From: a bacterium
GTDB taxonomy: Bacteria > Hydrothermota > Tepidihabitantia > Tepidihabitantales > Tepidihabitantaceae
Assembly (NCBI GenBank): GCA_035505375.1
Contig: DATJQV010000086.1
Coordinates: 1-55,814 of the forward strand
DNA length: 55,814 nt
Direction of reading: 5' to 3'
Shown: in pieces, positions 2-24,420 of the stretch
How positions within the stretch are numbered: the first letter of the stretch is position 1
Layout: each line of letters begins with the position of its first letter
Notes under the pieces: model-generated
The model's input: the letters and a program-made list of their open reading frames with translations, nothing else
Databases searched by the model: none
Told to the model about the DNA's origin: nothing
Program-made: the position numbers and the translations under genes

Positions 2-421
2 ATACCGATTCTTCAGGCAGTCCAGGAGGAGCAGGGCTTTCTTTCGGAGGACGCCGTCGTCAGCATCGGCCGACACCTGCGGATACCCGCAAGCAAGGTG
101 TTCGGCGTGGCGACGTTCTATAATCAGTTCCGGTTCCAACCTAAGGGCAAGTACCACGTAATGGTCTGCCGGGGAACTGCGTGTCACGTGAAGGGCTCGC
201 AGAAGGGACTGGAGATGGTCACCAAGCTTCTGAAGGTCGAGCCGGGCAAGACGACCCGTGACAAGCTGTTCAGCCTTGAGGTTGTGGCTTGCATGGGCGC
301 CTGCGGATTGGCGCCGGTCGTGAACGTCAACGGCCAGTTCTACGCCAAGGTGACGCCGCTCAAGCTGCAGCGGATCATCGAGGAGTGCCGGGCAAAGGAG
401 CGGGCCAATGTCAAAGCCTGA
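2..421 (+). CDS. hydC: HydC/NuoE-like [2Fe-2S] subunit of hydrogenase 1 (5' end outside window)
   Basis: This is a thioredoxin-like [2Fe-2S] subunit of the NuoE/HydC family, which in trimeric [FeFe] hydrogenases passes electrons to or from the flavin subunit. The frame is open from base 2 with no start, so the gene begins before the window. The family core VFGVATFYNQF is followed by the ligand pattern CRGTACHVKG and, later, CMGACGLAP, giving the four expected cysteines. It overlaps the next gene by 14 nt, which suggests translational coupling. The GTG inside the conserved VFGVATFY stretch is not a plausible start, because family members continue upstream of it. Confidence 0.93.
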   Translation: MPILQAVQEEQGFLSEDAVVSIGRHLRIPASKVFGVATFYNQFRFQPKGKYHVMVCRGTACHVKGSQKGLEMVTKLLKVEPGKTTRDKLFSLEVVACMGACGLAPVVNVNGQFYAKVTPLKLQRIIEECRAKERANVKA

Positions 422-3713: not shown

Positions 3714-3721
3714 GGTGAAAG

Positions 3722-5449: not shown

Positions 5450-5461
5450 AAGGTGACGAAA

Positions 5462-5854
5462 ATGGATACACCAAAGAAGATAATGGTCGTCGACGACGAC
5501 ATCGACCTGCTCGAACAGGTTGCGACGATCCTGGCTGGGGATGGCTACGAGGTCCAAAAGGCCCAGGGCCAGGAGGAGGCCGAAGAGCTGCTTACGGGCT
5601 TCATCCCGGACCTGGCGGTGCTCGACCTGATGATGGAGAACATGGATTCCGGTTTCGTCCTGTGTCACAACATCAAGAAGCTTTACCCCGGCACGCCGGT
5701 TATCATCCTGACCGCGGTCCAGGCCGCTACCGGTCTCGACTTCAAGGCCCGGTCCGCCGAGGCCGGCTCGTGGGTCAAGGCCGACATCCTGATGGACAAG
5801 CCGGTCCGGCCCGAGCAACTGAAGGCTGAAGTCAGGCGACTGCTAGCGAAATAG
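5462..5854 (+). CDS. Stand-alone response-regulator receiver protein
   Basis: A CheY-like receiver domain with no output domain, 130 residues. The acidic pocket VVDDDID, the phospho-acceptor D55 in AVLDLMM and the switch Thr in IILTAVQ are present. Between beta4 and the conserved Lys (MDKPV) it has a longer than usual segment containing ATGLDF and GSWVKADI. A second receiver, before hydrogenase 2, has a related but shorter segment. The ATG at 5462 was chosen because AAGGTGA ends 5 nt upstream; a GTG at 5453 would overlap that site. It follows hydA by only 12 nt, so it is very likely part of the hydrogenase operon and a partner of the kinases downstream. Confidence 0.9.
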   Translation: MDTPKKIMVVDDDIDLLEQVATILAGDGYEVQKAQGQEEAEELLTGFIPDLAVLDLMMENMDSGFVLCHNIKKLYPGTPVIILTAVQAATGLDFKARSAEAGSWVKADILMDKPVRPEQLKAEVRRLLAK

Positions 5855-5880
5855 GTCCTATATGACCTATAGGACCTATA
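5854..5880. repeat. Three tandem 9-bp units, also an inverted repeat
   Basis: Three consecutive 9-mers (GGTCCTATA, TGACCTATA, GGACCTATA) fill most of the 33-bp gap between the receiver and the sensory hydrogenase. The outer copies also form a perfect inverted repeat with 9-bp arms (5854-5862 and 5868-5876), so a small hairpin or operator is possible. A related 9-bp-phased tract lies inside the next gene. Confidence 0.8.
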
Positions 5881-5887
5881 CCCTGCC

Positions 5888-7942
5888 GTGACCCCTGAGC
5901 TCACCGGCCTTGTCCTGACGATACCGGAGAAGTGCCGGGTCTGCTACACCTGTGTGCGCGAGTGCCCGGCTAAGGCGATACGGATTCGCGCCGGTCAGGC
6001 CGAGGTCGTGCCCGAGCGCTGTATCGGCTGCGGCAACTGCGTCCGGGTCTGCTCCCAGCACGCCAAGCGGGTGTACGACTCCGCGACGCTCGTTCGCGGC
6101 CTGCTGGACCGGAATAGGACGGATCCGACGGATCGGTCTGATCGGACCGATGCTCCGCTGGTCGCCTGTGTCGCGCCGAGCTTCCCGGCCGAGTTCGGCA
6201 TCGCCGACTACCAGTCGCTTGCCGGCATCGACCACCGCCGGTTGGTCGGGATGATTCGCCGCCTCGGCTTCGACCGGGTCGTTGAGGTCGCCTACGGAGC
6301 AGACCTCGTTGCCCGACGCTATCGGAAGCTGATCTCCGAACAGCCGAACGCCCGTTTCATCGCCACCACCTGCCCGGCAATCGTCCTCTACGTTGAGAAG
6401 TACCATCCGGAGTTGGTGCCGTTTCTTGCCCCGGTAGTATCGCCCATGATCGCCACGGCTCGGGTCGTCCACAAGCGCTACGGCGCCGATGCCCGGGTCG
6501 TCTTCATCGGTCCTTGCATAGCGAAGAAGGCCGAGGCGGCGGCCGAACGCTACCGGGACGACGTCACCGCCGCGCTCACTTTCATGGAGCTGCGCCAGTT
6601 GTTCGAAGAACGCGGCGTGACTGCCGAGTCGGTCGAGCCCTCGGAGTTCGATCCTCCTCACCCGGGCAAAGGGATGCTCTTTTCGGTCAAGCGCGGTATC
6701 CTGCAGGCCGCGGGCATCGAGGAGGACCTGGTCGCGGGAGACGTGGTCGCCGCGGACGGCGGCTCGGAGTTCGGTCATGCCCTGCACGAATTCTCCGAAG
6801 GCCATCTCGACGTCCGCTTGCTCGAAGTGCTCTCCTGCAAGGGCGGCTGTATCATGGGCGCCGGGGCAGGCACACGCGCCCCGCTCTTCAGCCGCCGGGC
6901 CGCAGTGAGCCGCTATGTACGAGAGCGCCTGGCTGCAGGTGGAGCTCAGCCCGAATCCACCGACGTAGACCTTAACGCTTGGTTCTATCCCGACGAACGG
7001 TCGATGCCGATTCCATCACAGGACGAAATCGCATCCATCCTTACCCGAATGGGGAAAAAGGACCCGGGTGACGAGCTCAACTGCGGTGCGTGCGGGTACG
7101 AGACCTGCCGCGAGCACGCCATTGCCATCTTCGACGGGCTGGCCGAGAGCGAGATGTGTCTGCCCGCGACCATCGCCCGGCTGAACGAAGCCATCGGCGA
7201 ACTCGGCGTCACCAACCGTCAACTTGCCAGCGCCCAGCAGGCGCTGGTCCAGTCCGAGAAGCTCGCCAGCATGGGCCAGCTTGCCGCCGGTATCGCCCAC
7301 GAGGTGAACAACCCGCTCGGCGTCGTGTTGCTCTACAGCCAGCTCTTGCTCGAAGAGTGCGATCCGAACTCGGAGCAGTACGCAGATCTGAAGAAGGTCG
7401 CCGAGCAGGCGGACCGGTGCAAGAAGATCGTCTCCGGCCTGCTCAACTTCGCCCGCAAGAACCAGGTGAATCTCAAGCCGGTGAGAATCGACGAGTTCAT
7501 GTCGGCCTGCAGGCACGCGGTCGTGGTGCCGGAACGGGTCAAGCTGGTCATGGAGAGCCGGGTTGCCGACGCCGACATTGAACTCGACCCCGACCAGATG
7601 ATGCAGGTCTTCACCAACCTGATGAACAACGCGATTGAAGCGATGCCGGGCGAAGGAATCCTCACGGTCCGCGCCGAGGGCGACGCCGAATCGGTGCAGG
7701 TGAGCATCAGCGACACCGGCGTCGGCATACCCAAGGAGAATGTCAAGAAGGTATTCGAACCGTTCTTCACGACCAAACAGGGCGGCAAGGGTACCGGCCT
7801 CGGTCTTGCCATCTGCTACGGAATCGTCAAGATGCACCGCGGAAGCATCGTGGTTCAGTCGAATACCGACCCTAGGACCGGGCCGACCGGCACGACGATG
7901 ACTGTGAAGCTACCGCGTCACCCGCAGGGCGGACTGGAATGA
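5888..7942 (+). CDS. hydS: Sensory [FeFe]-hydrogenase fused to histidine kinase (HydS, group C1-like)
   Basis: 684 residues. Domains in order: two ferredoxin motifs (CRVCYTCVREC, CIGCGNCVRVC); an H-cluster-binding hydrogenase domain with divergent motifs TTCPAIV, GPCIAKKAEA and SCKGGCIMGAG; a [4Fe-4S] domain (NCGACGYETC, ending in a Cys near SEMC); a coiled stretch; then HisKA with H471 in GIAHEVNNPLG and a HATPase domain (NLMNNAIEAM, DTGVGIP, GKGTGLGL). Known: hydrogenase-kinase fusions are placed in the putative H2-sensing group C and are thought to signal rather than turn over H2 in bulk. The cluster-ligand cysteines are retained. The start is a GTG with no clear ribosome-binding site. A 9-bp repeat tract (6115-6150) encodes a T/S-D-R-rich linker between ferredoxin and hydrogenase domains. 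Confidence 0.9.
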   Translation: MTPELTGLVLTIPEKCRVCYTCVRECPAKAIRIRAGQAEVVPERCIGCGNCVRVCSQHAKRVYDSATLVRGLLDRNRTDPTDRSDRTDAPLVACVAPSFPAEFGIADYQSLAGIDHRRLVGMIRRLGFDRVVEVAYGADLVARRYRKLISEQPNARFIATTCPAIVLYVEKYHPELVPFLAPVVSPMIATARVVHKRYGADARVVFIGPCIAKKAEAAAERYRDDVTAALTFMELRQLFEERGVTAESVEPSEFDPPHPGKGMLFSVKRGILQAAGIEEDLVAGDVVAADGGSEFGHALHEFSEGHLDVRLLEVLSCKGGCIMGAGAGTRAPLFSRRAAVSRYVRERLAAGGAQPESTDVDLNAWFYPDERSMPIPSQDEIASILTRMGKKDPGDELNCGACGYETCREHAIAIFDGLAESEMCLPATIARLNEAIGELGVTNRQLASAQQALVQSEKLASMGQLAAGIAHEVNNPLGVVLLYSQLLLEECDPNSEQYADLKKVAEQADRCKKIVSGLLNFARKNQVNLKPVRIDEFMSACRHAVVVPERVKLVMESRVADADIELDPDQMMQVFTNLMNNAIEAMPGEGILTVRAEGDAESVQVSISDTGVGIPKENVKKVFEPFFTTKQGGKGTGLGLAICYGIVKMHRGSIVVQSNTDPRTGPTGTTMTVKLPRHPQGGLE
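6115..6150 (+). repeat. In-frame 9-bp tandem repeat inside hydS
   Basis: Four 9-bp units (TAGGACGGA, TCCGACGGA, TCGGTCTGA, TCGGACCGA) sit in phase with the reading frame and encode a (T/S)-D-x linker. The pattern resembles the intergenic 9-mers at 5854-5880. Conserved domains on both sides are intact, so the tract looks like an insertion tolerated in a linker. Confidence 0.7.
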
Positions 7943-7969
7943 GACCCGCGCCGAGAAAGCAGGTGTAGA

Positions 7970-9109
7970 ATGGAAAGACTGAAGCTCCTGGTGGTGGACG
8001 ACGAGCAGCCGATGCGCGAGGGCGTGATGCGGGCGCTGCGTAAGTTCACCGTGAGCCTGCCCTATGCCGAGGACGACTACGGCTTCGACATGTTCGAGGC
8101 GGGAACCGGCGAAGAAGCTCTTGAGCTCATCGAAAAGAACCCGCCGGACCTGGTGCTGCTCGACTACAAGCTGCCGGGCATCAAGGGCCTCGATGTGCTC
8201 GACAGCATCACCCAGCGCCAGCTCGACATCCTGACCGTGATGATAACGGCCTATGCGTCGCTCGAGACCGCGGTCAGCGCCACTCGGTACGGCGCGTACG
8301 ACTTCCTGGCCAAGCCGTTCACGCCCGAGGAGCTGCGCGGCGCGGTGCAAAAGGCGACCAAGCATCTTGTGCTTTCGCGGCAGGCGCGCAAGCTCTCGGA
8401 GGAAAAACGCCGGGTCCGGTTCGAGTTTATCTCGGTGCTGGCGCACGAACTCAAGTCCCCGCTGGCAGCGGTCGAAGGCTACCTGCGGATAATCCAGGAG
8501 AAATCCGCAGGCGATAGCCTCGCCGCGTACGAGACGATGGTCGGACGTTCGCTGACGAGGCTCGAGGGGATGCGCAAGATGATATTCGATATCCTCGACC
8601 TGACCCGCATCGAGTCCGGGCAGAAGAAACGCGAGCTCGTTGAGACCGACCTGCGTGAGGCGGCCCAGGCGGCAATCGAGACCGCGCTGCAGTCGGCCCG
8701 GGATCGCGGCGTGGCCATCGAACTGCACGCGCCGGAACGGGCGCCGCTGCTGGCTGACCGCGGCGAACTCGACATCATCTTCAACAACCTGGTGTCCAAT
8801 GCCGTCAAGTACAACCGTGAGAACGGTCGGGTTGACCTCACGATCGCCGTTGATGACGAAGTGGCGACAGTAGCCTGTCGCGACACCGGCATCGGGTTGA
8901 GCGAGACCGAGGCCCAACAGCTCTTCCGGGAGTTCATCCGCATCAAGAACGCCAAGACCAAGAACATCCTGGGCTCGGGGCTCGGCCTCTCAACGGTCAA
9001 GAAGCTCGCGACCGAGTACTACGGCGGTGACGTCCGGGTTGAGTCGACGCCGGACGTCGGCAGTACCTTCACCGTCACCCTGCGCCGTCGCCCGGCGGCG
9101 CAACGTTAG
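7970..9109 (+). CDS. Receiver-histidine kinase hybrid
   Basis: 379 residues: an N-terminal receiver (VVDDEQPMREG, phospho-acceptor in LVLLDYKLPG, MITAY, AKPFTPEEL) followed by HisKA with H159 in SVLAHELKSPLAA and a HATPase domain (NNLVSNAVKYN, DTGIGLSE, GSGLGLS). No membrane segment or extra sensory domain is visible, so it is a soluble relay kinase whose input is probably phosphorylation of its own receiver. It follows the sensory hydrogenase by 27 nt and is the last gene of the first operon. Inference: it relays or integrates the signal from the H2 sensor to the two stand-alone receivers. Neither this gene nor its neighbours carries a DNA-binding domain. Confidence 0.9.
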   Translation: MERLKLLVVDDEQPMREGVMRALRKFTVSLPYAEDDYGFDMFEAGTGEEALELIEKNPPDLVLLDYKLPGIKGLDVLDSITQRQLDILTVMITAYASLETAVSATRYGAYDFLAKPFTPEELRGAVQKATKHLVLSRQARKLSEEKRRVRFEFISVLAHELKSPLAAVEGYLRIIQEKSAGDSLAAYETMVGRSLTRLEGMRKMIFDILDLTRIESGQKKRELVETDLREAAQAAIETALQSARDRGVAIELHAPERAPLLADRGELDIIFNNLVSNAVKYNRENGRVDLTIAVDDEVATVACRDTGIGLSETEAQQLFREFIRIKNAKTKNILGSGLGLSTVKKLATEYYGGDVRVESTPDVGSTFTVTLRRRPAAQR

Positions 9110-9257
9110 CCCTTCCGCGAACCGAGTCCGGGGGCTTACCACCAAGGAACAGAGAGGAAGGGATGAAATCGGAAAGGCTGAATCGGGAAAGGTCGGAGTC
9201 CGGACATTCATCCTTCATCCCTCCGCCTTCATCCTTTCACCTGGCCCCTGCCGCGGC

Positions 9258-9285
9258 TTGAAAGCCCGCCCCGTTGTGCTAAGAT
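9258..9285 (+). promoter_or_regulatory. Promoter for the hydrogenase 2 operon
   Basis: TTGAAA (9258-9263), a 16-nt spacer and TAAGAT (9280-9285) lie in the only sizeable gap of the hydrogenase island. The receiver at 9367 follows with a GGAG ribosome-binding site about 6 nt before its GTG. This predicts that hydrogenase 2 can be transcribed independently of hydrogenase 1. Confidence 0.5.
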
Positions 9286-9366
9286 ACATCCTTTAGGTTG
9301 CGCTCCGTCTCATCCGTCACACAATCCACGGCCCGGACCTAAAGACAGATATCAAAAGGAGTTCAC

Positions 9367-9738
9367 GTGCCGAAGGTACTTATCGTTGACGACGACCCCG
9401 ATATCGTCGATTCACTGAAACTCGTCCTGTCGGCTGAAGGGTACGCAGTGGCGGCGGCCACGAGCCGGGTCGAAGCCATGCAGGCGGCCGAGCGGGAAAA
9501 ACCGGACCTTATTATCCTTGACGTCATGATGGAGCAGCCGGACGACGGTCTGGTGGTCGCCCAGGATCTGCGCCACAAGGGCGTGAGGACGCCCATCATT
9601 ATCCTGTCCTCGATCGGTCATGTGACCGGGTACAAGTTCGGCAAGGATTCGGAAGTGGCCCCGGTGGACGACTTCGTGTCGAAGCCGGTCGCGCCCAAAG
9701 ACCTGGTCGCCAAGGTCAAGAAATTCCTGAGGAAATGA
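9367..9738 (+). CDS. Stand-alone response-regulator receiver protein, hydrogenase 2 operon
   Basis: A 123-residue receiver domain. It shows the acidic pocket IVDDDPDIVDS, the phospho-acceptor in LIILDVMME, Ser as switch residue in ILSSIG, and SKPVAPKD for the conserved Lys. Like the receiver at 5462 it has an unusual beta4-alpha4 segment with V/A-TGYKF, so the two look like paralogues. The GTG start has AGGAG upstream. Its stop is 2 nt before the chosen hydC start, so it is first in the operon receiver-hydC-hydB-hydA. Without an output domain it probably acts by protein contact, perhaps with a kinase or the hydrogenase itself. Confidence 0.9.
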   Translation: MPKVLIVDDDPDIVDSLKLVLSAEGYAVAAATSRVEAMQAAEREKPDLIILDVMMEQPDDGLVVAQDLRHKGVRTPIIILSSIGHVTGYKFGKDSEVAPVDDFVSKPVAPKDLVAKVKKFLRK

Positions 9739-9740
9739 CG

Positions 9741-10265
9741 ATGTTGGCAACTGAAAGAGAATCACTCCGCCACGAAATCGCGGAATTGGCGGAGAAGTAT
9801 GAGCACAAGCGCGACGGGATGATGCCCATTCTCGAGGCCGTCCAGGAGAAGTACCGTTGCGTATCCGATTTCGCGATGCAGGAAATCGCCCGCCAGCTCG
9901 GCGTGTTCCCGACCGAGGTTTACGGCGTGGCGTCGTTCTACTCGTTCCTTTCCACCGAGCCAAGGGGCAAGTTCGCCATCCGACTCTGTCGTACCCTTTC
10001 CTGCGACTTCGCGGGCAAGAAGGAAGTAGCTCGCCAGCTCGAGAACGAACTCGCTGTCGGGTTCGGCCGCACCACGCAGGACGGGCTCTTCTCGCTTGAG
10101 TACTGCAACTGCCTGGGCATGTGCGACCACGGGCCGGCGCTGCTCGTGAACAACGACGTGTACACCGAGGTCAGCCCGGAGTTGGTATCGGACATCCTCG
10201 AAAAGTACCGGAGGATGTTCGGCCCGGCATCGCAGTTGGAGGAAAAGGAGACGCACCATGGCTAG
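9741..10265 (+). CDS. hydC: HydC/NuoE-like [2Fe-2S] subunit of hydrogenase 2
   Basis: A 174-residue NuoE-family protein with the N-terminal helical bundle (AQ-rich LRHEIAELAEKY...MMPILEAVQEKY) and the core GVFPTEVYGVASFYSFL. The four [2Fe-2S] cysteines are in CRTLSCDF and CNCLGMCD. It links the cluster chain to the HydB flavin in NAD-linked hydrogenases. The ATG at 9741 is preferred because AGGA lies 7 nt upstream; an ATG at 9735 overlapping the previous stop (ATGA) is the alternative. The 3' end overlaps hydB by 8 nt. Confidence 0.93.
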   Translation: MLATERESLRHEIAELAEKYEHKRDGMMPILEAVQEKYRCVSDFAMQEIARQLGVFPTEVYGVASFYSFLSTEPRGKFAIRLCRTLSCDFAGKKEVARQLENELAVGFGRTTQDGLFSLEYCNCLGMCDHGPALLVNNDVYTEVSPELVSDILEKYRRMFGPASQLEEKETHHG

Positions 10266-11439
10266 TGCAATTCACATCATGGAGCGCTACGAAGCCGGTT
10301 CGGGAGTGAAGAAGGCGCTCTCGATGTCGCGGACCGACGTCATCCGGACCGTGCGTGAGTCCGGCATCCGCGGTCGCGGCGGCGCCGGGTTTCCGACTGC
10401 GGTGAAGTGGAACCTGTGCGCGGCGGCCCAGGCCCCGAAGAAGTTCATCATCTGCAACGCCGACGAGGGCGAGCCGGGTACGTTCAAGGACCGTCTGCTT
10501 CTGACCGAGCGGCCCGAGGCCCTGTTCGACGGCATCACCATCGGTGGCTATGCTATCGGTGCGAAACTCGGGATCATTTACCTCCGTGCCGAATATGCCT
10601 ACATGCGGCCCGGGCTGGACGCTGCTCTGGCAGCCCGGCGCAAGAACAAGCTGCTGGGTAAGAAAGTGCTCGGCAAGAGCTTCGAGTTCGACATCGAAAT
10701 CCGCATGGGCGCCGGCGCCTACGTCTGCGGTGAGGAGACCGCGCTCATCGAGTCGCTTGAGGGCTCGCGCGGCGAGCCCCGCAACCGGCCGCCCTACCCG
10801 GTGAACACCGGGCTCGTCGGCGCGCCGACCTCAGTGAATAACGTCGAGACCCTCATCGCCTGCGCGCATATCCTGGTAAAGGGGCCGGAGTGGTTCAAGA
10901 AACTTGGCACCGAGATCTCAACCGGGTCCAAGTTGCTCTCGGTCTCCGGCGACTGCGCCCGGCCCGGCGTCTACGAGGTCGGGTTCGGCACCACGATCAA
11001 GGACCTGCTGAAGCTCGTCGAGGGCGAGGGGGCCAAGGCGGTGCAGGTCGGCGGCGCGTCGGGACGGACCGTCCCGGCGAAGCAGTTCGACCGCAAGCTG
11101 GGTTTCGAGGACCTCGCGACCGGCGGCTCGATAATCGTCATCGGACCGCAGCGCGACATGCTCGACGTGGCCGAGAATTTCCTCGACTTCTTCGTCGAGG
11201 AGTCCTGCGGCCAGTGCACGCCCTGCCGCGAAGGAAACCCGAAACTGCTGGAGGGCGTGCGCCTGCTGCAACAGGGACGCTGCTCCATCAACTACCTGCG
11301 CGAGCTGCAGAGCCTCGGACGCACGATGCAGGTGGCGTCCAAGTGCGGGCTCGGCCAATCGAGCGCCAATGCGTTCCTCGACATAACCGAGCAATTCCGG
11401 TCGGAAATCCTGGGCCGCGTGCCCGCGAGCAAGGAGTAG
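10258..11439 (+). CDS. hydB: Minimal HydB/NuoF NADH-binding flavoprotein of hydrogenase 2
   Basis: 393 residues containing only the NuoF core: GRGGAGFPT, CNADEGEPGTF and the Gly-rich NADH/FMN region, GAYVCGEETAL, an SLBB domain, and the [4Fe-4S] site ESCGQCTPCREG plus SKCGLGQ. It lacks the N-terminal thioredoxin-like [2Fe-2S] domain and the C-terminal double [4Fe-4S] domain found in Thermotoga-type bifurcating HydB. From memory of the family, such short HydB subunits occur in NADH-dependent, non-bifurcating enzymes of syntrophs. I infer the same here, with moderate confidence. Strong AAGGAG precedes the ATG, and the gene overlaps hydC. Confidence 0.94.
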   Translation: MASAIHIMERYEAGSGVKKALSMSRTDVIRTVRESGIRGRGGAGFPTAVKWNLCAAAQAPKKFIICNADEGEPGTFKDRLLLTERPEALFDGITIGGYAIGAKLGIIYLRAEYAYMRPGLDAALAARRKNKLLGKKVLGKSFEFDIEIRMGAGAYVCGEETALIESLEGSRGEPRNRPPYPVNTGLVGAPTSVNNVETLIACAHILVKGPEWFKKLGTEISTGSKLLSVSGDCARPGVYEVGFGTTIKDLLKLVEGEGAKAVQVGGASGRTVPAKQFDRKLGFEDLATGGSIIVIGPQRDMLDVAENFLDFFVEESCGQCTPCREGNPKLLEGVRLLQQGRCSINYLRELQSLGRTMQVASKCGLGQSSANAFLDITEQFRSEILGRVPASKE

Positions 11440-11445
11440 TCCAAG

Positions 11446-13449
11446 ATGCCAAGGACGAAGTCGGAAGCTAGAAGTCAGAAGTCAGAAGTCAAGACGGCAA
11501 AGCAGGAAGCCGGTAAGTCCAGCAAAGTCGCCCCGGGCACCACTGCCCCGACCAGCGAGAAGCCGATGACCATCACCGCCGGCAAGCCGGGCGATATCGG
11601 CGGCCTCGTGTCGGTGAAGATCGACGACCTCGACATCAAGGTGCCGTTCGGCACAACCATCCTCCAGGCGGCCAAGACCGTCGGCATCCGCATCCCGACG
11701 CTCTGCTACCACGAGGACCTGTGTCTTGCCGGGGTCTGCCGCATCTGCTCGGTCGAGGTGTCAAAGCAGCGGACGCTCCAGACCGCCTGCACGTTCCCCA
11801 TTACCGAACCGATTACCGTCAGCACGACCAGCCAGCGCGTCCGGCAGGCGCGCCGCCACATTCTCGACCTCCTTCTCTCCAAGCACTATGGCGAGTGCTA
11901 TTCCTGTTTCCGCAACAACAACTGCGAGCTGCAGGCGCTGGCCAAAGAATACGGCGTGGATTTCTTCCGGTTCGGCCACCCGGACAAGCCGCGCTTCGAG
12001 ATTGACCGCTCCAGCTACTCGGTGGTGCGCGACATGAACAAGTGCGTGCTCTGCCGGCGCTGCGTCCGGACCTGTGTTGACCTGCAGTCGGTCGGGGTCT
12101 ACAGCGCGGCGCACCGGAGCGAGAAGACGAAGATCGAGACCTTTGAGGACCGGCCGCTCGCCGACGTCATCTGTATCAACTGCGGCCAGTGCATCAACCG
12201 CTGCCCGACCGGCGCGCTCCGGGCCAAGGATCCGTCGGACGAAATCTGGGCCGCGATTGACGACCCCAAGAAACACGTCGTGATGCAGACCGCGCCCAGC
12301 CCGCGTGCCGCAATCGGCGAGGAGTTCGGGCTTGAGGCCGGCACCTCGATGACGGGGGAGATGAACACCGCCCTGCGCCGCGCCGGGTTCGATATGATCT
12401 TCGACACCAACACGACCGCCGACCTCACCATAATCGAGGAAGGCACCGAACTGCTGACCCGGCTGTACAAGGCGCTGGTCAAGAAGGAAGAGGCGTTCCT
12501 GCCCCAGTTTACCTCCTGTTCGCCGGGCTGGGTCAAGTTCATCGAGCACTTCTATCCCGAGTACCTGCCCTGGATGTCGAGCTGCAAGTCCCCGCAGCAG
12601 ATGTTCGGCGCGCTCATCAAGAGCTACTACGCCCAGAAGCAGAACCTGAACCCGGCCGACATCGTGACGGTGTCGCTGATGCCATGCTCGGCCAAGAAGT
12701 TCGAGGCGAACCGGCCGGAGATGCGCTCATCCGGGTATAAGGACGTTGACTACGGCCTGACCACCCGCGAGACCGCGCAGATGATCAAGGAAGCCGGCAT
12801 CGACCTGCCGCACATGCCCAAATCCCATTTCGACCTGCCGTTCGGCGACGCCTCTGGCGCCGGCCTCATCTTCGGCGCGTCCGGCGGCGTCATGGAAGCG
12901 GCGCTCCGGACCGTGGTTGAGGTCGTGACGGGCTTGAAGGCCGAGCAGGTCTTCACCGACGCCTGCATCATCCCGGTGCGCGGGTTCGAGGGCGTCAAGT
13001 ACATGGAAATCAAGGTGCCTCAGACCGGCCCGATGCTCGACCTGTTCAAGCCGCTCATCAAGAAAGGCAAGCTGGGCAAGGACTGGTCGTGGCTCAAGGG
13101 CGCGACGCTCAAGGTCGCGGTGGCCCACGGCACGGCCAACGCCCGCAAAGTGATGGAAGACATCAAGGCGGGGGGCAAGTTCTCCCAGTGCCAGTTCATC
13201 GAGTTCATGGCCTGCCCCGGCGGTTGCCTCGGCGGTGGCGGCCAACCGATTCCGACCTCGCCCGCGATTCGCAAGGCCCGGGCCAAGGCCATCTACGCCG
13301 AAGACATGGGGCTCGCTATCCGCAAGTCGCACGAGAACCCGTACGTGCTGAAGCTCTACGCGGAGTTCCTCACCGATGGGCCTTGCGGCGAGGTGAGCCA
13401 CAAGTACCTGCACACCCACTACACGCCCCGCGGCGACTACCTCGTCTAG
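11446..13449 (+). CDS. hydA: [FeFe] hydrogenase catalytic subunit HydA (hydrogenase 2)
   Basis: 667 residues. After a Lys/Ser-rich N-terminal extension (about 1-40) come a [2Fe-2S] domain (CYHEDLCLAGVCRIC), a His-Cys3 site (HYGECYSCFRNNNC), two [4Fe-4S] motifs (CVLCRRCVRTC, CINCGQCINRC) and intact H-cluster motifs TSCSPGW (C358), MPCSAKKFE and ACPGGCLGGGGQP, ending SHKYLHTHYTPRGDYLV. The extension is encoded by a 7-bp repeat (about 11462-11496, unit close to GAAGTCA) of the kind also seen between genes in this window. A downstream ATG at 11566 could be the original start, but GGAG before 11446 supports the longer form. This is the last gene of the operon, with a hairpin 17 nt after the stop. 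Confidence 0.96.
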   Translation: MPRTKSEARSQKSEVKTAKQEAGKSSKVAPGTTAPTSEKPMTITAGKPGDIGGLVSVKIDDLDIKVPFGTTILQAAKTVGIRIPTLCYHEDLCLAGVCRICSVEVSKQRTLQTACTFPITEPITVSTTSQRVRQARRHILDLLLSKHYGECYSCFRNNNCELQALAKEYGVDFFRFGHPDKPRFEIDRSSYSVVRDMNKCVLCRRCVRTCVDLQSVGVYSAAHRSEKTKIETFEDRPLADVICINCGQCINRCPTGALRAKDPSDEIWAAIDDPKKHVVMQTAPSPRAAIGEEFGLEAGTSMTGEMNTALRRAGFDMIFDTNTTADLTIIEEGTELLTRLYKALVKKEEAFLPQFTSCSPGWVKFIEHFYPEYLPWMSSCKSPQQMFGALIKSYYAQKQNLNPADIVTVSLMPCSAKKFEANRPEMRSSGYKDVDYGLTTRETAQMIKEAGIDLPHMPKSHFDLPFGDASGAGLIFGASGGVMEAALRTVVEVVTGLKAEQVFTDACIIPVRGFEGVKYMEIKVPQTGPMLDLFKPLIKKGKLGKDWSWLKGATLKVAVAHGTANARKVMEDIKAGGKFSQCQFIEFMACPGGCLGGGGQPIPTSPAIRKARAKAIYAEDMGLAIRKSHENPYVLKLYAEFLTDGPCGEVSHKYLHTHYTPRGDYLV

Positions 13450-15862: not shown

Positions 15863-17116
15863 TCATGTCTCTCCGTGAGTGCCCTCGTGCGGGATAGCTT
15901 TCAGTTCCAGGTTCGGGATCTTCGGGAGGGCTGCGCCGATGATTCCCTCCAAGTCGCCGTACATGCCGGTGGTGTTTGTCACGACACGTTCTATCTGCTT
16001 CTCACGTGCCGCCCAGATCTTGGTCATGGACCGCTTCTCAGCGTCCAGTTCGGTCTTCATTGCTACGAAAGCCTCGACGATGGCCTCGACGCGGTGCTTG
16101 AACTCCGAGCCGGACAGGTAGTCGTACAGCATCTCCAGCTTGCCTTGCTTGCCGACGGAGGCAGTTCGCGCAGAGGTCACGAGAATCAGACTCTCGCGGA
16201 GGGCCTGCCCAAGGCTAATCGCGCACGATTGGCTCGTGACCCACACGCCTTCGTGCTGGCCGAATGCCTCCATGCCTTTGGGCATGGCTGTCGTCAACAA
16301 CACGGCCAACTCCGCCTTGGCCTCGCGCTTGTCTTCCTTCAGCTTCTCGACCCAGCCTGAACTCCAGCTCTTGGTCCGCTTGGCTTCCCAGACAATCGCG
16401 CCGCACGGTCGTCCCGCGTGGTCGCAGACGCGCTGAATCACGTCCGCGCCCCTCTTGCCCTTCGGCACCGGGTCAATGGTGTCGTACGGGAACGCGTCCC
16501 TGAGTTGCTGTTCCATGTCCAGTTCCAGCGTCTCGCCCTGCGCCTGTTGGGAGCCCTGCTCGGCCTTGCGCTTCAGCTCGTCTATCGTGGCCTTCAGACC
16601 TTCGATCATCTTATCCTTGTCCGAGTCGCGCAGCCGGTGCTGTTCATCGGCTGCCTTCAAGGCATCCTCTGTGAGCTTCTTCCGTTCCGCGTCGAGACGA
16701 CGAGCGACCTCCAACTCCATGTTCTTCTTCTCGGCCTCAAGCTCCCGCTGCCTCTTCCGAATCTCCAGTTCGTTCTTCTGCGCCTGCTCCAGCGCCGTGT
16801 CCTTCTCGGCCACCTGGTTCTGCAGGTCGGCAACCGCTAAGGCCACGGACTCGGTCGCCTTCTTCTTCGCCTCAGCCTCAACTCGGACGCGCTCCTCTGC
16901 CAGCCGCTTCGAGACAGTCTCATCTACTGTCTTACGTGACTCCTCCAACTGCTTCTCGCGTGTGGCCAGTGCTTCGCGCTCCCTGGCTAGTTCACGTTCT
17001 TTCGCCTGCGTCTTGGACTCATACTCTTTGCGTATCTCCTCGCTGAGGCGGCTCGATATTGCCTCTGTCAGCGGGATTTCGGTTCCACATTCTGGGCACC
17101 TAATGGTCTGGACCAT
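15863..17116 (-). CDS. DUF2130 coiled-coil protein with PD-(D/E)xK-like C-terminus
   Basis: 417 residues. A short N-terminal CPECGTEIPL motif is followed by a long Glu/Lys/Arg-rich coiled coil (about 20-200), then the DUF2130 domain with GADVIQRVCD and IVWEAKRTKSWSSGW. The Asp and the E-A-K resemble a PD-(D/E)xK nuclease core, which is the fold proposed for this family. It lies beside a restriction-modification operon on the same strand, so a nucleic-acid role is plausible but not shown. The ATG at 17116 has GGGAGG 7 nt upstream. An in-frame ATG at 17149, 6 nt after a good -10 box, would add 11 residues if the message is read as leaderless. Confidence 0.85.
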   Translation of the reverse strand: MVQTIRCPECGTEIPLTEAISSRLSEEIRKEYESKTQAKERELAREREALATREKQLEESRKTVDETVSKRLAEERVRVEAEAKKKATESVALAVADLQNQVAEKDTALEQAQKNELEIRKRQRELEAEKKNMELEVARRLDAERKKLTEDALKAADEQHRLRDSDKDKMIEGLKATIDELKRKAEQGSQQAQGETLELDMEQQLRDAFPYDTIDPVPKGKRGADVIQRVCDHAGRPCGAIVWEAKRTKSWSSGWVEKLKEDKREAKAELAVLLTTAMPKGMEAFGQHEGVWVTSQSCAISLGQALRESLILVTSARTASVGKQGKLEMLYDYLSGSEFKHRVEAIVEAFVAMKTELDAEKRSMTKIWAAREKQIERVVTNTTGMYGDLEGIIGAALPKIPNLELKAIPHEGTHGET

Positions 17117-17155
17117 GGTAATCCTCCCAAGTTCTGTCGGCTCGGTCATGGCCGG

Positions 17156-17338: not shown

Positions 17339-18841
17339 TCAATCGTCGGAGACAGACAGATGGGCTCGCCCCAAGACAGGTTGCCCGCCGATGGCGGCCT
17401 CCAGTTCGTGAATCGCCTGGTCTTCGAACGCGTTGGCCTGTTCTTTCTTCTCGAACGCTTCAACGACCGGCTTGCCGATTCGCTCTTGCACATCAGGCGG
17501 GGCGTCGGGAAGCCAGATGGCGGCTGTGTCGTCAGCGGTGAGTTCGTCCACGACGCCGCCGTATATCTTGCTGGTCAACTGAAGCTGCCCGTATGTCGTC
17601 ATCAAGAACGCCGCCAGATAGCCGGCGTGAGACCGGCCCTCTCTCGGAACGATGCGCTCGATATGCTGAGACGCAGCCCATCCTTCGTGAGCGTGCGGGG
17701 CAACGGTGACGCGGCCTATCGTGCCAGAGCAAGTCACTAGAACCCAACCTGCTCGGATAGTCCAAGGTGTCAGGTCCTTGTGCGCGGTCCGAGACAGGTA
17801 CTTCAGGTCGATCGGTCGCCTCTCCGGGATGTGAGACCCCTGCAGGAACGGCACACCGTGTTCGCGCCTAACATATATCCGACGGAAACGCGGAGCCACG
17901 TAGGGTTCAGCCAACGCGCCGAGTTTCACGAGGGGATACTTGCCTTTCTCCATTTGGCTTACGCAAGTACGCGCCAAAGGCAGATGGAATGAAACGTCAA
18001 ACCGGCCAGTAAGATCAGACGCCTTCAGGCTGAACGCCTTGGGGTGATGGTCGATGCCATCGCCGGCTGTTGGGCGGATGTACGGAATCTGCCTATCGTC
18101 GAATGGAGCGATCCCCAGTTCCCGATAGAGCAGACCGTCCGCTTCGTCAAGCAGGTCATTTGCCTCATCGCGAAGCCTGTATGCCTGCATGACCGTGTCG
18201 TGTATCGTCTGCTGCTGGCCATCCGGAAGGAGTGGAACGGGGATACCCGCAAGGTGATGAGGTTCGAGGTGCGACACGGTCGCACCGTACTCCTCGCGAG
18301 TCATCAGCGCCTGCCCAATCCAGGATGTAAGGTAAGCGTAGAGATAACCTAGAGGAACGACTGACTCAATCCGCAGCAGGTCGTGAGTCAGAAAGAACTG
18401 TTCAAGGCGCTTGGTGGCGATGCAGCAGCGACCCACGACGCCTGAGCACGTGACGAGAATCCATCCGGCCTGGGCGAAATGACGTTGAGCGTCGTCGGGG
18501 GCTTTGTCCTTGGCGACCCATCGCACGCTGGACGGGCGAAACGCGAGTGCCTCGGACGCGCTCAGGTATGGCCATCCCTTCGTGGGGTCCCTGGTGTAGA
18601 TGCGCTTGAATCGCGGGAGGTTGAACACCTTGCTTGTAATGCGGCGGTCGTTCAGCGAGATCGTCGGCAAGCCAGCCGCCTCCAACGCACGGAGCGCTGT
18701 GACGGCGGCCGTGGCGTAGTAGGCGGAGTCCAGACGGGCGTCGCCCGCCAATAGCCACTTGGCTTCGACTCCAAAGTGCTGAGGCAGAGATTTCGGCTCG
18801 GCTGCCGGCGCAGGCAGGGCCTGAGCTGCTGATGTCCTCAT
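17339..18841 (-). CDS. hsdS: Type I-like specificity subunit HsdS with two target-recognition domains
   Basis: About 500 residues in two similar halves, each with the same local pattern: AGWILVTCSGVVGR in the first and AGWVLVTCSGTIGR in the second, followed by H-D/I-ER-type segments and helical spacers (AYRLRDEANDLLDEADGLL, EAFEKKEQANAFEDQ). That is the two-TRD layout of HsdS, which reads a bipartite target. The ATG at 18841 overlaps the methylase stop (ATGA), indicating coupling; a GTG at 18877 is less likely. It is the last gene of the operon, and no hsdR translocase gene is present in the window. Confidence 0.88.
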   Translation of the reverse strand: MRTSAAQALPAPAAEPKSLPQHFGVEAKWLLAGDARLDSAYYATAAVTALRALEAAGLPTISLNDRRITSKVFNLPRFKRIYTRDPTKGWPYLSASEALAFRPSSVRWVAKDKAPDDAQRHFAQAGWILVTCSGVVGRCCIATKRLEQFFLTHDLLRIESVVPLGYLYAYLTSWIGQALMTREEYGATVSHLEPHHLAGIPVPLLPDGQQQTIHDTVMQAYRLRDEANDLLDEADGLLYRELGIAPFDDRQIPYIRPTAGDGIDHHPKAFSLKASDLTGRFDVSFHLPLARTCVSQMEKGKYPLVKLGALAEPYVAPRFRRIYVRREHGVPFLQGSHIPERRPIDLKYLSRTAHKDLTPWTIRAGWVLVTCSGTIGRVTVAPHAHEGWAASQHIERIVPREGRSHAGYLAAFLMTTYGQLQLTSKIYGGVVDELTADDTAAIWLPDAPPDVQERIGKPVVEAFEKKEQANAFEDQAIHELEAAIGGQPVLGRAHLSVSDD

Positions 18842-20778
18842 GTGGGTTGCCTGCGGAGTCTGCCTTGGGTCAGCCACTGTTCAAAGAGCGGGGCCACATT
18901 AGCGACCTCGTCGTCCCGAACTCTGCGGAGTTCGTGCTTCTCAACACTTGAGGCTGCGCCGCCTGCGTCAATGACGGGCACGGTAATCGCCGTAAGGCGT
19001 TCTACCTCTTCGCCCTCGGGCGTCCTCACCCATAGGTCGTTGCCGCGCCGGTCGAAGCCGGAGGTCTTGCACAGTGCCATGAAAACCTCGTAGTCCTGAA
19101 TAGCCTTGCTGGCCTCCTCAAGGCGCATCTCGTCTGCGCTCTTCTTCTCCAGTATGAGGACACTAGTCTGCGTGCCTGTGCCGCTGAAAGCTAGGAAGGT
19201 CTCAACTGGAAGGTCGATGCTAGCGATGATGCGGCAGCGTTTGAGTATCCATCGTCGGACGAACCCGAGTCCAGGGTTGCTGAGTATGCTGTCCGGCAAG
19301 ACAATCGCCAACCTGCCCCCGGGCTTGAGGAGTTGCCAACATCGTTCTATGAAGAGCTGCTCGGGTGGCATGGAACCGCGAGGACTGGGGGTTTCGTACT
19401 TCGGCAGCTCAAATTGGTCCAGCACGTGCGGGTCCGTGACGACGAGACCCGGGCCCGCCCCGAACGGCGGATTAGTATAGATGATGTCAATCGTGTTTGG
19501 CTTGATCTTGGCCTTGACGTCGTCGCGCCACTCGCCCGTCGGGAGGAGCGAGTTGGATTGGTAGACGTTCGTACTCCCGTCGCCGTGCATCACTAGATTC
19601 ATCTGTGCTGCCCGGACTAGCTCTGGGTTGATATCAATGCCAAACAGGAGGCGGTCGCAGATGTCCTTGAGCCGTGCCGCTGCTTTGTCAGACGCTTGGA
19701 CTGTGTCCTTCCATTTCTGTTCTTCTATCGAGCGAGCATGGTCTCGCCAGAGGTTCATCTGAGCCCTCAGGAATCCGCCGGTCCCGCAAGCCAGGTCCAG
19801 CACCTTGAGCGAGAGCCATTTGTCCGCAGGGTAGGTTGCCATCACCATTCGCACGGCCATCTGGCAGACGTTTGGTGGGGTGAAGAACTCCCCGCGGCTT
19901 CCGCGCAGGTTTTCGCGAACGATCTCTTGGTAGGCTTCGCCTTTGACGTCAGCAGTTGTGAGCAGCAATGAGTAGCGTCGTAGCTCGCTGACTATGTAGG
20001 CCAGCACCGGGTCACTCAACTCGATACGGTCATGTGGGGCGAAGATGTAGGGGAACTGCTCCTTGACCTCTTTGAACATTTCGTCTATCCGCTGCCTGAG
20101 TCTACGTTGCCCGAGCACTGAACGTCGTTCTTCGGTAGACACATCGAAGCGCATCTGGCCGGTGGTGTTCTGCTCGTCGTAGACCTTGCAGAAGAAGAGT
20201 TTGAGCAGTTCGTTGAAGGCCTTGTCCTTGGGCATCCCGTCGTTTGCGTAGATGTAGTTGTGGCAACGCTTGAACACATCACGGAGACCCTCGGCGGGCT
20301 TCAGTTGGTCGAAGGTAATACGTGGGGCCTGAGTCTTGCCGTAGGGTGGGATGTCTGCAACTATGACCGGGCTGCGCCGGTCTTCTTCCGTGGAAACCTC
20401 ATATGCCTGAAGCTCGGAGCCTACCCATATGCCCCACTTGGCCTTGAAGCAGGCGGCCAAGTAGGACTTGAGTTGCTCAACTCCACTGTCACGATCCGTA
20501 GGTCTGACGACTTCCGGTTTGGTCTCCGCAATCAGGAATACCTCTTCCTGCTTGTGGTCGCGGTCGTGGCTGAAGATGGCAATGTCAACGCGTTTCTTTG
20601 CACGACCGACGTTAACGGTGAACTCCAGTTCGATGTCCTCTTTCGGATAGCCGTACTCCTCCACGAGACTGCGAGCGACACGCTGGCGAACGTGCTCCTC
20701 GGGCGTATCCTTGCGCAGCTTACCTGTGATGTAACACCGAATCATGCCGGGCGGAATGAACTGAATCTCGTCACTCAT
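18838..20778 (-). CDS. hsdM: N6-adenine methylase with fused HsdR-N-type nuclease domain
   Basis: 646 residues. The N-terminal part (about 10-150) matches the HsdR N-terminal nuclease family: VGRAKKRVDIAIF supplies an Asp and VFLIAETKPEV supplies the E-x-K of a PD-(D/E)xK site. The rest is an HsdM-like methylase with a helical N-domain, GEFFTPPNV, SAM motif LDLACGTGGF and catalytic NPPFG in DIIYTNPPFGAG. Nuclease plus methylase in one chain with a separate S subunit resembles BcgI-type IIB/IIG layouts rather than classical type I. The ATG at 20778 has AGGAGG 7 nt upstream; the 33 codons before it in the open frame are not needed. Confidence 0.88.
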   Translation of the reverse strand: MSDEIQFIPPGMIRCYITGKLRKDTPEEHVRQRVARSLVEEYGYPKEDIELEFTVNVGRAKKRVDIAIFSHDRDHKQEEVFLIAETKPEVVRPTDRDSGVEQLKSYLAACFKAKWGIWVGSELQAYEVSTEEDRRSPVIVADIPPYGKTQAPRITFDQLKPAEGLRDVFKRCHNYIYANDGMPKDKAFNELLKLFFCKVYDEQNTTGQMRFDVSTEERRSVLGQRRLRQRIDEMFKEVKEQFPYIFAPHDRIELSDPVLAYIVSELRRYSLLLTTADVKGEAYQEIVRENLRGSRGEFFTPPNVCQMAVRMVMATYPADKWLSLKVLDLACGTGGFLRAQMNLWRDHARSIEEQKWKDTVQASDKAAARLKDICDRLLFGIDINPELVRAAQMNLVMHGDGSTNVYQSNSLLPTGEWRDDVKAKIKPNTIDIIYTNPPFGAGPGLVVTDPHVLDQFELPKYETPSPRGSMPPEQLFIERCWQLLKPGGRLAIVLPDSILSNPGLGFVRRWILKRCRIIASIDLPVETFLAFSGTGTQTSVLILEKKSADEMRLEEASKAIQDYEVFMALCKTSGFDRRGNDLWVRTPEGEEVERLTAITVPVIDAGGAASSVEKHELRRVRDDEVANVAPLFEQWLTQGRLRRQPT

Positions 20779-20831
20779 TGTCGTACCTCCTGGGAATGAC
20801 CGTATGACCGCCACGGGGCCGCCCTCTACGC

Positions 20832-21632
20832 TCAGCTTGTTGCATAGCCGTCCTGGACTTGCTCGAAGCCGACCCACGTGAACCAGTCCTTGAGCTCAAG
20901 GAACTCGGCCCAGCGGTTGACCATGGCGATGTCGTCTTCGTAGGTGGCGGACGGGCCTTGCGCGGTCAGGGCGGCTAGCGCGTTGCCTTGGTCCTCGAAG
21001 CCGGCACGCTCAAAGCGCCCAAGCAGGGGCTTTGCCGTATGCTCGCTTAGCAGCTTGAAGAACGTGTGGTTCATGACATGGGCTGCCTGGTATGTCTTTC
21101 CGGGCGTGAAGTCGCGGACTCTCGGTGTGAGTGCCTGCGCAGCTTCGTCGCGCTGCCCGAGGAGCGACTGCATCTGGTCGTCGCGCAAGGCCGGGTACTC
21201 GTCGTACAGCCACTTCTCGATGGCGATGTCCGAGGGGTAGTTGGTCAGTTGCCGCACGAGTCCGTGGTACAGCATATTGAAGTACTCCGGCGCCTTGTCG
21301 CTCTGAATGGTGCGGCTTATTCGCTCGATGTCTGCCAGCATCGGCTTGAGGGCCGCGGTCATTGTTTCGCGGTTGGATGCGGGCACGAGCCTACGTTCTT
21401 CCGGTACGGAGCACATTCTTATGGCATGGGCGCATTCGTGGGCAATCAGGTGGTTCAGGATGCCGCCGCGCACGGACCGGTAGTGGATGAGGTGCGACGG
21501 CATCCCGCGCCGTGCTATCTTGATGGCGGCGTGCGGAACGAGGTCTTTCTTCTCTACGAGGTTGAAGCCCTTGCCGGTAATCTCGCTCACGCGCGCCATG
21601 ACGGCGCGGACCGAGTCGCTCAGTTCAAGCAC
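20832..21632 (-). CDS. Putative zinc metallopeptidase (HExxH)
   Basis: 266 residues with HECAHAIRM (about residues 65-73), an HExxH zinc-binding motif in a predicted helix (LIAHECAHAI), preceded by a basic beta region (HAAIKIARRGMPSHLIHYR). No signal peptide or membrane segment is visible, so it should be cytoplasmic. I do not recognise a named family. The gene overlaps the TPR gene by 8 nt and lies 53 nt before the nuclease-methylase, all on one strand. Context suggests a joint transcription unit with the restriction-modification genes, although its link to them is unproven. Confidence 0.65.
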   Translation of the reverse strand: MLELSDSVRAVMARVSEITGKGFNLVEKKDLVPHAAIKIARRGMPSHLIHYRSVRGGILNHLIAHECAHAIRMCSVPEERRLVPASNRETMTAALKPMLADIERISRTIQSDKAPEYFNMLYHGLVRQLTNYPSDIAIEKWLYDEYPALRDDQMQSLLGQRDEAAQALTPRVRDFTPGKTYQAAHVMNHTFFKLLSEHTAKPLLGRFERAGFEDQGNALAALTAQGPSATYEDDIAMVNRWAEFLELKDWFTWVGFEQVQDGYATS

Positions 21633-22503
21633 CAGGCGCTCCGTCTGACTCGAAGAGCTTGCGGGCGGCCACGTATTCGCGGGCGAAGTCCATGCCGACG
21701 TCGACGCTGGGGTCTATCCGGCGGAAGCCGACGTACATGATGCTGACGAGATGCAGGCCGCTGAATTCTCCGGGCAGGCACTTGAGCCGGTACTTGCGGT
21801 CGGGGTTGTTGACGTCGAGGCCGGAACGGCCGAGCAGGCCGATCTCGAACGTGACCTCGCGGACGTACTCGTCCGGCTTGTCCTTGAACAGCTCCAGTGC
21901 GCCGAGGCAGTAGAAGACCGCATCGGGCCGCAAGTCCTGCTGGTGAAGGTCGCGGTTGAGGATCTCGCGCCGCATCTCTTTGGCGTCTTCGGTCTGGGGC
22001 AGCTTGCCGAGCGCGAGGTAGCGTCTGAGATATTTGTCCGCTTCCTCGAACTGCTCTTGCTTGAACAGGCAGAGACCGAGGCCGTAGAGCGAGAGCGGGT
22101 CATCGGGCAGCTTTTCGAGCGCGTGCCGGAGGTGTGCTATCGCTTTGTCGTAGTCGCCTTCCTTGCCGAGGAGGCCGCCGAGGTTGCGCAGGGCATAGGC
22201 GTTGTCGGGCTCAAGCTCAAGGGCTTTAGCGAAGTTGGCTTTGGCTGCGGCCATCTCGCCGCGGCGCGACAGGGCGAAGCCGAGGGCCACGTAGGCGTTG
22301 GTCCTGGCCGGGTCAAGTTCAAGACAGCGCCGGAGGAGTTCGACTGCGCGGTCCGGCTCATCCATGTTGGTGCAAAGCATGCCGAGGTTGTAGAGGACGT
22401 CGGAGTTTGCGGGTTCTTCATCGAGTTGGAGCTCAAGCAGTTGCCGGGCCTCGGGAAGCCTGTGCTGCTTCAGCAATTCGAGGGCTCGCTGGAACCTGTC
22501 CAT
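21625..22503 (-). CDS. TPR-repeat protein, first gene of the restriction-modification operon
   Basis: 292 residues. Residues 1 to about 180 are five to six tetratricopeptide repeats (for example SDVLYNLGMLCTNMDEPDRA and NAYALRNLGGLLGKEGDYDKA), a protein-protein interaction scaffold. The C-terminal 110 residues are a distinct globular region (KYRLKCLPGEFSGLHLVSI) I do not recognise. A strong promoter lies 9 nt before the ATG. The stop overlaps the zincin start, so the two are almost certainly co-translated and may work as a pair. Confidence 0.8.
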   Translation of the reverse strand: MDRFQRALELLKQHRLPEARQLLELQLDEEPANSDVLYNLGMLCTNMDEPDRAVELLRRCLELDPARTNAYVALGFALSRRGEMAAAKANFAKALELEPDNAYALRNLGGLLGKEGDYDKAIAHLRHALEKLPDDPLSLYGLGLCLFKQEQFEEADKYLRRYLALGKLPQTEDAKEMRREILNRDLHQQDLRPDAVFYCLGALELFKDKPDEYVREVTFEIGLLGRSGLDVNNPDRKYRLKCLPGEFSGLHLVSIMYVGFRRIDPSVDVGMDFAREYVAARKLFESDGAPGA

Positions 22504-22882: not shown

Positions 22883-23485
22883 ATGGTTGAGCGTAAGAAG
22901 CTTGCCACGGCGTTCCGCGCCCAGGGTTGGGTGCTGACGGCCGCTCAGCTTGCAGGGCTTGGCGTCTATCCGCGGCGGCAGCAGGAGCTGCTGGCTGCGG
23001 GCTGGATGGAGCGCGTCGGCCGCGGGCTCTATCGGTGGCAGGAGGCGGACATCACCGAGCAGCACAGTCTGGTCATCGCGCAGCGGCTGGCGCCGCGCGG
23101 CGTGGTTTGCCTGGTCTCTGCCCTCGTGTTCCACCGGCTGACGACCCAGCGAACGCCGGAGGTGTGGATGGCCTTTGAGCGAGACAGGGACAAGCCTCCG
23201 GCAAGACCGGCGGTCAGGATGCACCCGGTAAAGTTCTCCGGCCCCGCCTTCCGGGAGGGCATCGAGCAGCACCGGGTCGAGGCTACTGAGCTGCGCGTGT
23301 ACTCGGTTGCCAAGACCGTGGTGGACTGTTTCAAGTTCCGGAACAAGGTCGGCTTGGACGTGGCGCTGGAGGCGCTGCGCGAGGGTTGGCGCGAGCGGCG
23401 GTTCGTGATGGATGATATCACGCGGCTGGCCCGTCTGCTCCGCGTAGCGAACGTCATGCAGCCATACATCGAGTCGCTGGTGTGA
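22883..23485 (+). CDS. abiEi: AbiEi-family antitoxin/transcriptional regulator
   Basis: 200 residues. The N-terminus is a winged-helix-like region (TAAQLAGLGVYPRRQQELLAAGWMERVGRGLYR), and the C-terminal part carries the AbiEi pattern (YSVAKTVVDCFKFRNKVGLDVALEALREGW). Known: AbiEi is the antitoxin and autorepressor of the type IV AbiE toxin-antitoxin and phage-abortive system. Its last 4 nt overlap the next gene (GTGA). The promoter places the transcript start at the ATG. The antitoxin is intact although its partner gene carries a stop codon. Confidence 0.9.
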   Translation: MVERKKLATAFRAQGWVLTAAQLAGLGVYPRRQQELLAAGWMERVGRGLYRWQEADITEQHSLVIAQRLAPRGVVCLVSALVFHRLTTQRTPEVWMAFERDRDKPPARPAVRMHPVKFSGPAFREGIEQHRVEATELRVYSVAKTVVDCFKFRNKVGLDVALEALREGWRERRFVMDDITRLARLLRVANVMQPYIESLV

Positions 23486-24420
23486 AGCGTCCCGCTCCGA
23501 CTGCCTTCGCCAGTTCAGTTCGAGATCGTCTGAAGGTAATTGCCGACCGTCGGCGCGAGGACTTCCAGGATGTGCTGCTGCGCTTCGGGGTCGAGCGGCT
23601 GCTGTATCGTCTCTGCCGTTCGGAGTGGCGGGACCGGTTTGTGTTGAAGGGGGCGATGCTCTTCGCCGTCTGGGCCGAGCGGCCGCATAGGGCTACGCGA
23701 GACGTGGACCTCTTGGGGTTCGGAGAAGTGACGGTTGCGGCGATGGAGCGCATCTTCCGTTCGCTCTGCTCAATGGAAGTCGAGCCGGATGGTTTGGTCT
23801 TTCGCGCCGCCACGGTCGCCGGAGAGCGTATTCGCGTCGGCCGCGGGTACGAGGGAGTTCGCATTACCCTGCGCGCCGAGCTCGCGCGAGCGGTGATTCC
23901 GCTTTAGGTCGACATCGGGGCCGGCGACCGCGTCGTGCCTCCGCCGGAGCTCGTTGCACTGCCTACACTTCTGACCATGACGGCCCCGCGACTCCGGGTC
24001 TACTCGCGTTACAGCGTCGTCGCCGAGAAACTCGAGGCACTCGTCGAGAAGGGGCTGGCCACGAGCAGAATGAAGGACCTTGTCGACATTCTGTTCCTGA
24101 GCCGCACGCACGGATTCGATGGCCCGACTCTCGTTCGCGCGATTGCATCGACATTCGACCGTCGCAAAACGCCCTTTCCTGCGGGAATACCCGAGGCCCT
24201 CGGGGACGCGTTCGTCTCGTCGTCGGCAAAGGATGCCCAGTGGCGGGCGTTCGTGCGCAGGAGCCGTCTGGTTGACGGCGTATCCGGGCTGGACGACGTT
24301 GTCCCGGTGCTGCGCGATTTCCTGCTGCCACCACTTGCTGCGGCGCGCGACGGCGCGCGCTTCGCACCGCAGTGGATACCGGGCAAGGGCTGGCGGGTGC
24401 GCGGGACAACCAGCGGCTGA
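23482..24420 (+). pseudogene. abiEii: AbiEii nucleotidyltransferase toxin interrupted by one amber codon
   Basis: One frame from GTG 23482 to TGA 24418-24420 would give about 312 residues, but TAG at 23905-23907 splits it after residue 141. The first part has FVLKGAMLFAVW and RATRDVDLLGFG, the nucleotidyltransferase core. The part after the stop resumes at once with VDIGAGDRVVPPP, VVAEKLEALVEKG and SRMKDLVDI, typical of the AbiEii second half. In relatives the residue before V/I-D-I-G-x-G-D is usually Gln, so a single CAG-to-TAG change explains the break. Probably inactive; readthrough or a sequencing error is possible. Confidence 0.85.

Follow-up and report, generated by a model that had tools for sequence, protein, structure and literature searches.

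The question raised by this locus is whether two adjacent genes, one encoding a nuclease fused to an HsdM-like methylase (M) and the other an HsdS-like specificity subunit (S), could constitute a restriction enzyme that cuts DNA without a translocase. The genes lie in a stretch of 55,814 nucleotides from a bacterium of the phylum Hydrothermota (contig DATJQV010000086.1 of assembly GCA_035505375.1), which is hereafter referred to as the window. An earlier, sequence-only reading had predicted cutting near the site without translocation, as in BcgI-type enzymes, but by an enzyme built from the nuclease domain of a type I R subunit.

The open reading frame of M, whose ATG start at 20778 has an AGGAGG sequence 7 nt upstream, matches the Pfam families HSDR_N_2 (E 1.3e-20) and then N6_Mtase (E 5.2e-27), and contains no motor domain according to Pfam. 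It is also the sole HSDR_N_2 match over the cut-off in the 3.6-Mb genome. The AlphaFold2 (AF2) model of full-length M has a mean pLDDT of 87 and ends in a lone C-terminal helix. S matches Pfam Methylase_S, and an internal repeat comparison shows its two halves to be homologous (30% identity over 218 columns, E 4e-27), which is the mark of a predicted HsdS with two target-recognition domains (TRDs). The sequence-only reading had described just such a fusion and a separate two-TRD HsdS; both descriptions hold, the coupling of S to M through an ATGA overlap adds to them, and the coordinates given for the pair, 17339-20778, were exact. The features of the locus are collected in Table 1.

Table 1. 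Features of the M/S locus, in window coordinates
Feature	Position	Strand	Description or basis
M (RM) gene	18838..20778	-	646 aa; nuclease, multi-helical connector, N6-adenine methylase and C-terminal helical tail
S gene	17339..18841	-	500 aa; target-recognition halves aa ~20-234 and ~267-476; Methylase_S, MAD5 kin
ATGA, overlap of M stop and S start	18838..18841	-	Sequence
AGGAGG ribosome-binding site of M	20786..20791	-	Sequence
PD-(D/E)XK nuclease domain of M, aa ~26-140	20359..20703	-	AF2 domain model and fold matches
E52 of M (BsaXI E73)	20623..20625	-	53-row alignment; BsaXI alignment; BsaXI E73A inactive (PMC11997821)
D65 of M (BsaXI D90)	20584..20586	-	53-row alignment; BsaXI alignment; mutation data (PMC11997821)
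E85-T86-K87 of M, ExK motif (BsaXI E105/K107)	20518..20526	-	Alignments; mutation data (PMC11997821)
Q102-x-x-x-Y106 of M, QxxxY motif	20461..20475	-	Invariant in alignment; motif described in PMC4454674
NPPF, aa 436-439 of M, catalytic motif IV of N6-adenine methylase	19462..19473	-	Alignment
C-terminal helix of M, aa 625-643	18850..18906	-	AF2 model; tail like BcgI-type RM subunits and M.EcoKI (PMC11997821)

The nuclease active site can be judged against that of BsaXI, a Type IIB enzyme made of RM and S subunits for which structures are available (PDB 8w0p, 8w2p, and 8w2q; PMC11997821). Replacing E73, D90, E105, or K107 abolishes cleavage by BsaXI (PMC11997821), and these residues align with E52, D65, E85, and K87 of M. 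All four, together with Q102 and Y106, are invariant in 53 relatives; the QxxxY motif formed by the latter two is known in RecB-like nucleases and EcoR124I HsdR (PMC4454674). In the AF2 model of the nuclease domain (pLDDT 91.5), the succession of helix, three strands, helix, and strand is that of the PD-(D/E)XK fold, with E52, D65, and E85 on successive strands. BsaXI is the only PDB fold match to this domain below E 0.001 (E 1.7e-5), followed by Cas4 and an HsdR (3h1t), all with modest TM-scores of about 0.4. The active site does not have a mutated look, its residues being intact in both the confident model and the alignments. Of the 92 loci, from 19 phyla, where M lies next to S, 90 have the four catalytic residues and QxxxY intact. 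The remaining two, which are very distant relatives, retain D, ExK, and QxxxY and are ambiguous solely at the column of E52. Judged by these residues, the bare pairs have the appearance of complete nuclease-methylases.

The resemblance to BsaXI extends over the whole of M. A profile of M finds BsaXI in the PDB with E 2.7e-62, in co-linear pieces, compared to 1.7e-27 for the best HsdM, and the top three fold matches of the full model are the BsaXI structures (E 6.3e-26 over 650 columns). BsaXI, like M/S, combines an RM fusion with a two-TRD S and has no translocase; its nuclease is likewise of the HSDR_N_2 type with the same four essential residues, and its connector and N6-methylase are co-linear with those of M. 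However, M is much shorter (646 versus 916 aa), lacks the knob and the paddle, and is only ~20% identical, and BsaXI has a known target. Two paddle residues, D816 and E823, are important for cleavage by BsaXI as well, although the paddle is absent from the other known Type IIB enzymes too (PMC11997821). Sequence comparison with BcgI-type enzymes involved BsaXI alone; BcgI, BveI, HpyUM, and Hso63250II (Type IIB, RM + S) are like the pair by published description, in gene content, in the order nuclease-connector-methylase, and in the lone C-terminal helix (PMC11997821). Because the N-terminus of BsaXI itself matches HSDR_N_2 (38.2 bits, cut-off 25), Type IIB enzymes normally carry the sort of nuclease domain found in Type I R subunits, which removes the contrast drawn by the sequence-only reading. 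The self-contained, translocase-free enzyme that it predicted stands, but its claim to novelty fails, since the best PDB match to M has the same kind of nuclease. The pair belongs to a known kind of enzyme, and its nuclease type is not new.

Relatives were collected by an alignment scan covering one genome per species, from which the best 80 of at least 442 confirmed loci were used; a single-protein query of the genome contigs gave zero matches, and it was the alignment query that recovered relatives. Those among the matches listed come from about 19 phyla, archaea included. The gene-content survey comprised 94 relatives and 1.24 Mb of flanking DNA, with 8 kb on both sides at only 33 loci. M itself (at 92 loci) and S (at 90) alone recurred widely; the family after them reached 7. 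One HsdR-like match turned up in these flanks with the six motors of the window's own genome as queries, a set to which strongly diverged HsdRs would be invisible; two loci were flagged when large open reading frames were filtered for Walker/DEAH motifs. No genes of MADS, the methylation-associated defense system, were found in the flanks of the 92 surveyed loci where M lies next to S. With no recurrent third gene or linked HsdR in the surveyed flanks, M and S are very likely the whole system, and their recurrence together at ~90 independent loci rules out a chance association.

The pair has spread horizontally, given that its closest relative among the matches listed (71% identity) is in a Desulfobaccales metagenome-assembled genome, and that five genomes from the same genus as the window's organism are without it. 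Bare pairs also occur on plasmids of Tessaracoccus, Paenarthrobacter, and Skermanella. In a Mycobacterium abscessus prophage (L136:9962-13305), a bare pair with an intact active site sits between the terminase and primase genes.

In its features, M/S agrees with the RM + S enzymes of Type IIB: a nuclease-methylase fusion, a coupled two-TRD S, the residues essential in BsaXI, and no translocase. It shares with Type I systems the two-TRD S, the N6-methylase core, and an HSDR_N-type nuclease, but differs from them in having no motor domain and no linked hsdR, and in the fusion of its nuclease to the methylase; the HsdR translocase of its own that a Type I system requires was not found. M and S could nevertheless methylate as part of a Type I system, with an unlinked HsdR translocating and cleaving, and the genome does contain five HsdR-like motors. 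A search with the HSDR_N profile gave six matches, namely these motors and a shorter helicase, all on other contigs, so that the hsdR gene reported as absent nearby is indeed missing from M's contig. However, no motor lacks a partner. Four (C16, C75, C28, and C17) each share a contig with their own N6 methylase, and the fifth (C64) runs toward a contig end encoding an apparent HsdM N-terminus; the remaining HsdM part and an HsdS begin at the edge of contig C22, and the two contigs are probably halves of one broken Type I locus. The shorter helicase (C32; 638 aa, with no HSDR_N call at the protein level) also adjoins its own methylase. The genome search that had been proposed as a test of the pair's independence thus ended with every HsdR-like motor beside a methylase gene of its own. 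As a linked HsdR is also missing in the relatives, apart from the single match, and the intact nuclease of M would be redundant, we consider a Type I system with a distant HsdR to be improbable. The C16 HsdR (L168:517-3948, minus strand; 1143 aa) carries a GIY-YIG nuclease domain besides HSDR_N (aa 605-674, E 7.7e-14), located between the motor and T1R_D3-like domains, and is separated from its methylase by a gene for a 1088-aa DEAD-box helicase.

A different kinship, which the sequence-only reading did not recognize, is that with MADS. The best NCBIfam matches are MAD2 for M (NF047738; 569 bits, cut-off 720) and MAD5 for S (NF047740; 371 bits, cut-off 400). These are the closest curated families, with the same domain order, 34-37% identity to M, and homology to S, and they might suggest that the pair is what is left of a MADS system after loss of other mad genes, or a variant acting with unlinked ones. 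Real MADS loci, however, have added MAD6, MAD7, and MAD8 (and others), and a search whose positive control worked found no MAD7 in the window's genome or in 146 further genomes of the phylum. The eight MADS loci that we found come from Piscinibacter (MAD2 at 1015 bits, plus MAD3, MAD6, MAD7, and MAD8), Hymenobacter (MAD2 at 844 bits), Bacteroides and Phocaeicola, and, in four cases, a viral collection. Their MAD2 proteins have lost ExK and QxxxY in all eight loci, whereas 90 of the 92 M + S loci keep the full set; the Fisher p of 2e-10 for this contrast is overstated, as one or two origins are enough to account for MADS on the tree and the 8 and 90 loci do not amount to 98 independent events. 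Indeed, in a tree of the methylase part, the MADS proteins form one or two groups, apart from the M of the window. With its intact active site and about 90 relatives that are equally bare pairs, the M/S pair is very improbable as a MADS remnant. The dead nucleases of MADS bear on another alternative, namely that the nuclease fold is kept for DNA binding or assembly and that M + S is a solitary methylase. Relatives of this sort do exist, both in MADS and as an orphan MAD2-like methylase on a Streptomyces plasmid (L135:11887-14103), which has a destroyed nuclease motif and no S or MADS genes nearby. However, selection would not keep the catalytic set and QxxxY in a non-cutting domain across 90 loci and 19 phyla, and relatives living with other effectors did lose active-site residues. 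A purely modifying role is therefore unlikely, although less so than the other two alternatives.

We thus regard M/S as most likely a restriction-modification system of the BcgI/BsaXI kind (Type IIB, RM + S) that is complete with its two genes, and in which the cutting, its geometry, the assembly, and the independence from ATP are predicted from sequence and homology. Two M and one S would form an (RM)2S complex, whose two TRDs would read a bipartite target, with each M methylating an adenine in one half-site; the two TRDs and the N6 methylase are consistent with a bipartite target methylated on adenine in both halves. DNA with an unmodified site would be cleaved by the N-terminal PD-(D/E)XK domains a short, constant distance away from that site, probably on each side of it, in a reaction with Mg2+ and SAM as cofactors but no ATP. 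New target specificities might be found in such a broadly spread Type IIB-like clade with intact active sites.

More interesting than the pair itself is the finding that its counterpart in MADS has a dead nuclease. On the methylase tree, the MADS proteins fall in one or two groups and ExK is kept by most outer relatives, so that the simpler polarity is a loss of the active site on the way to MADS; it represents one or two historical events, not many. We infer that MADS recruited this pair, the nuclease of which then decayed. More likely than not, MADS arose from this widespread stand-alone pair by keeping the methylase and S for self-marking, losing the nuclease active site, and moving the attack to added Mad proteins. 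If so, whether a MAD2-like protein has ExK or not would tell MADS methylases and complete restriction enzymes apart. Checking these residues is a simple aid to automated annotation, in which the scores of bare pairs fall not far below those required by the MAD2 and MAD5 models. A 2026 review (PMC12904381) lists as unknown how MADS achieves restriction; that its methylase appears here as a nuclease-dead branch of a nuclease-competent family argues against DNA attack by this domain.

Three neighboring genes, encoding a TPR protein (21625-22503), a HECAH protein (20832-21632), and a DUF2130 protein (15863-17149), were considered as extra subunits and rejected, being found beside M in no surveyed relative; none of the three proteins matches a mad family in NCBIfam. 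The HECAH protein (minus strand, 266 aa) has a zinc-protease-like motif but no counterpart among the families of Pfam, NCBIfam, or PADLOC; its gene overlaps with its start the end of the upstream TPR gene, and ends about 50 bases before M. The DUF2130 protein (minus strand), encoded just downstream of S, contains a D...EAK stretch reminiscent of PD-(D/E)XK motifs. An AbiEi/AbiEii toxin-antitoxin pair (22883-24420, plus strand) also lies beside the M/S system. Its second gene matches only the first part of AbiEii profiles and another open reading frame on this strand starts at 23935, which may mean that AbiEii is split. Elsewhere in the window, a hydrogenase cluster (408-13449) includes a gene (5888-7942, plus strand) in which an iron-only hydrogenase catalytic domain is fused to a histidine kinase.
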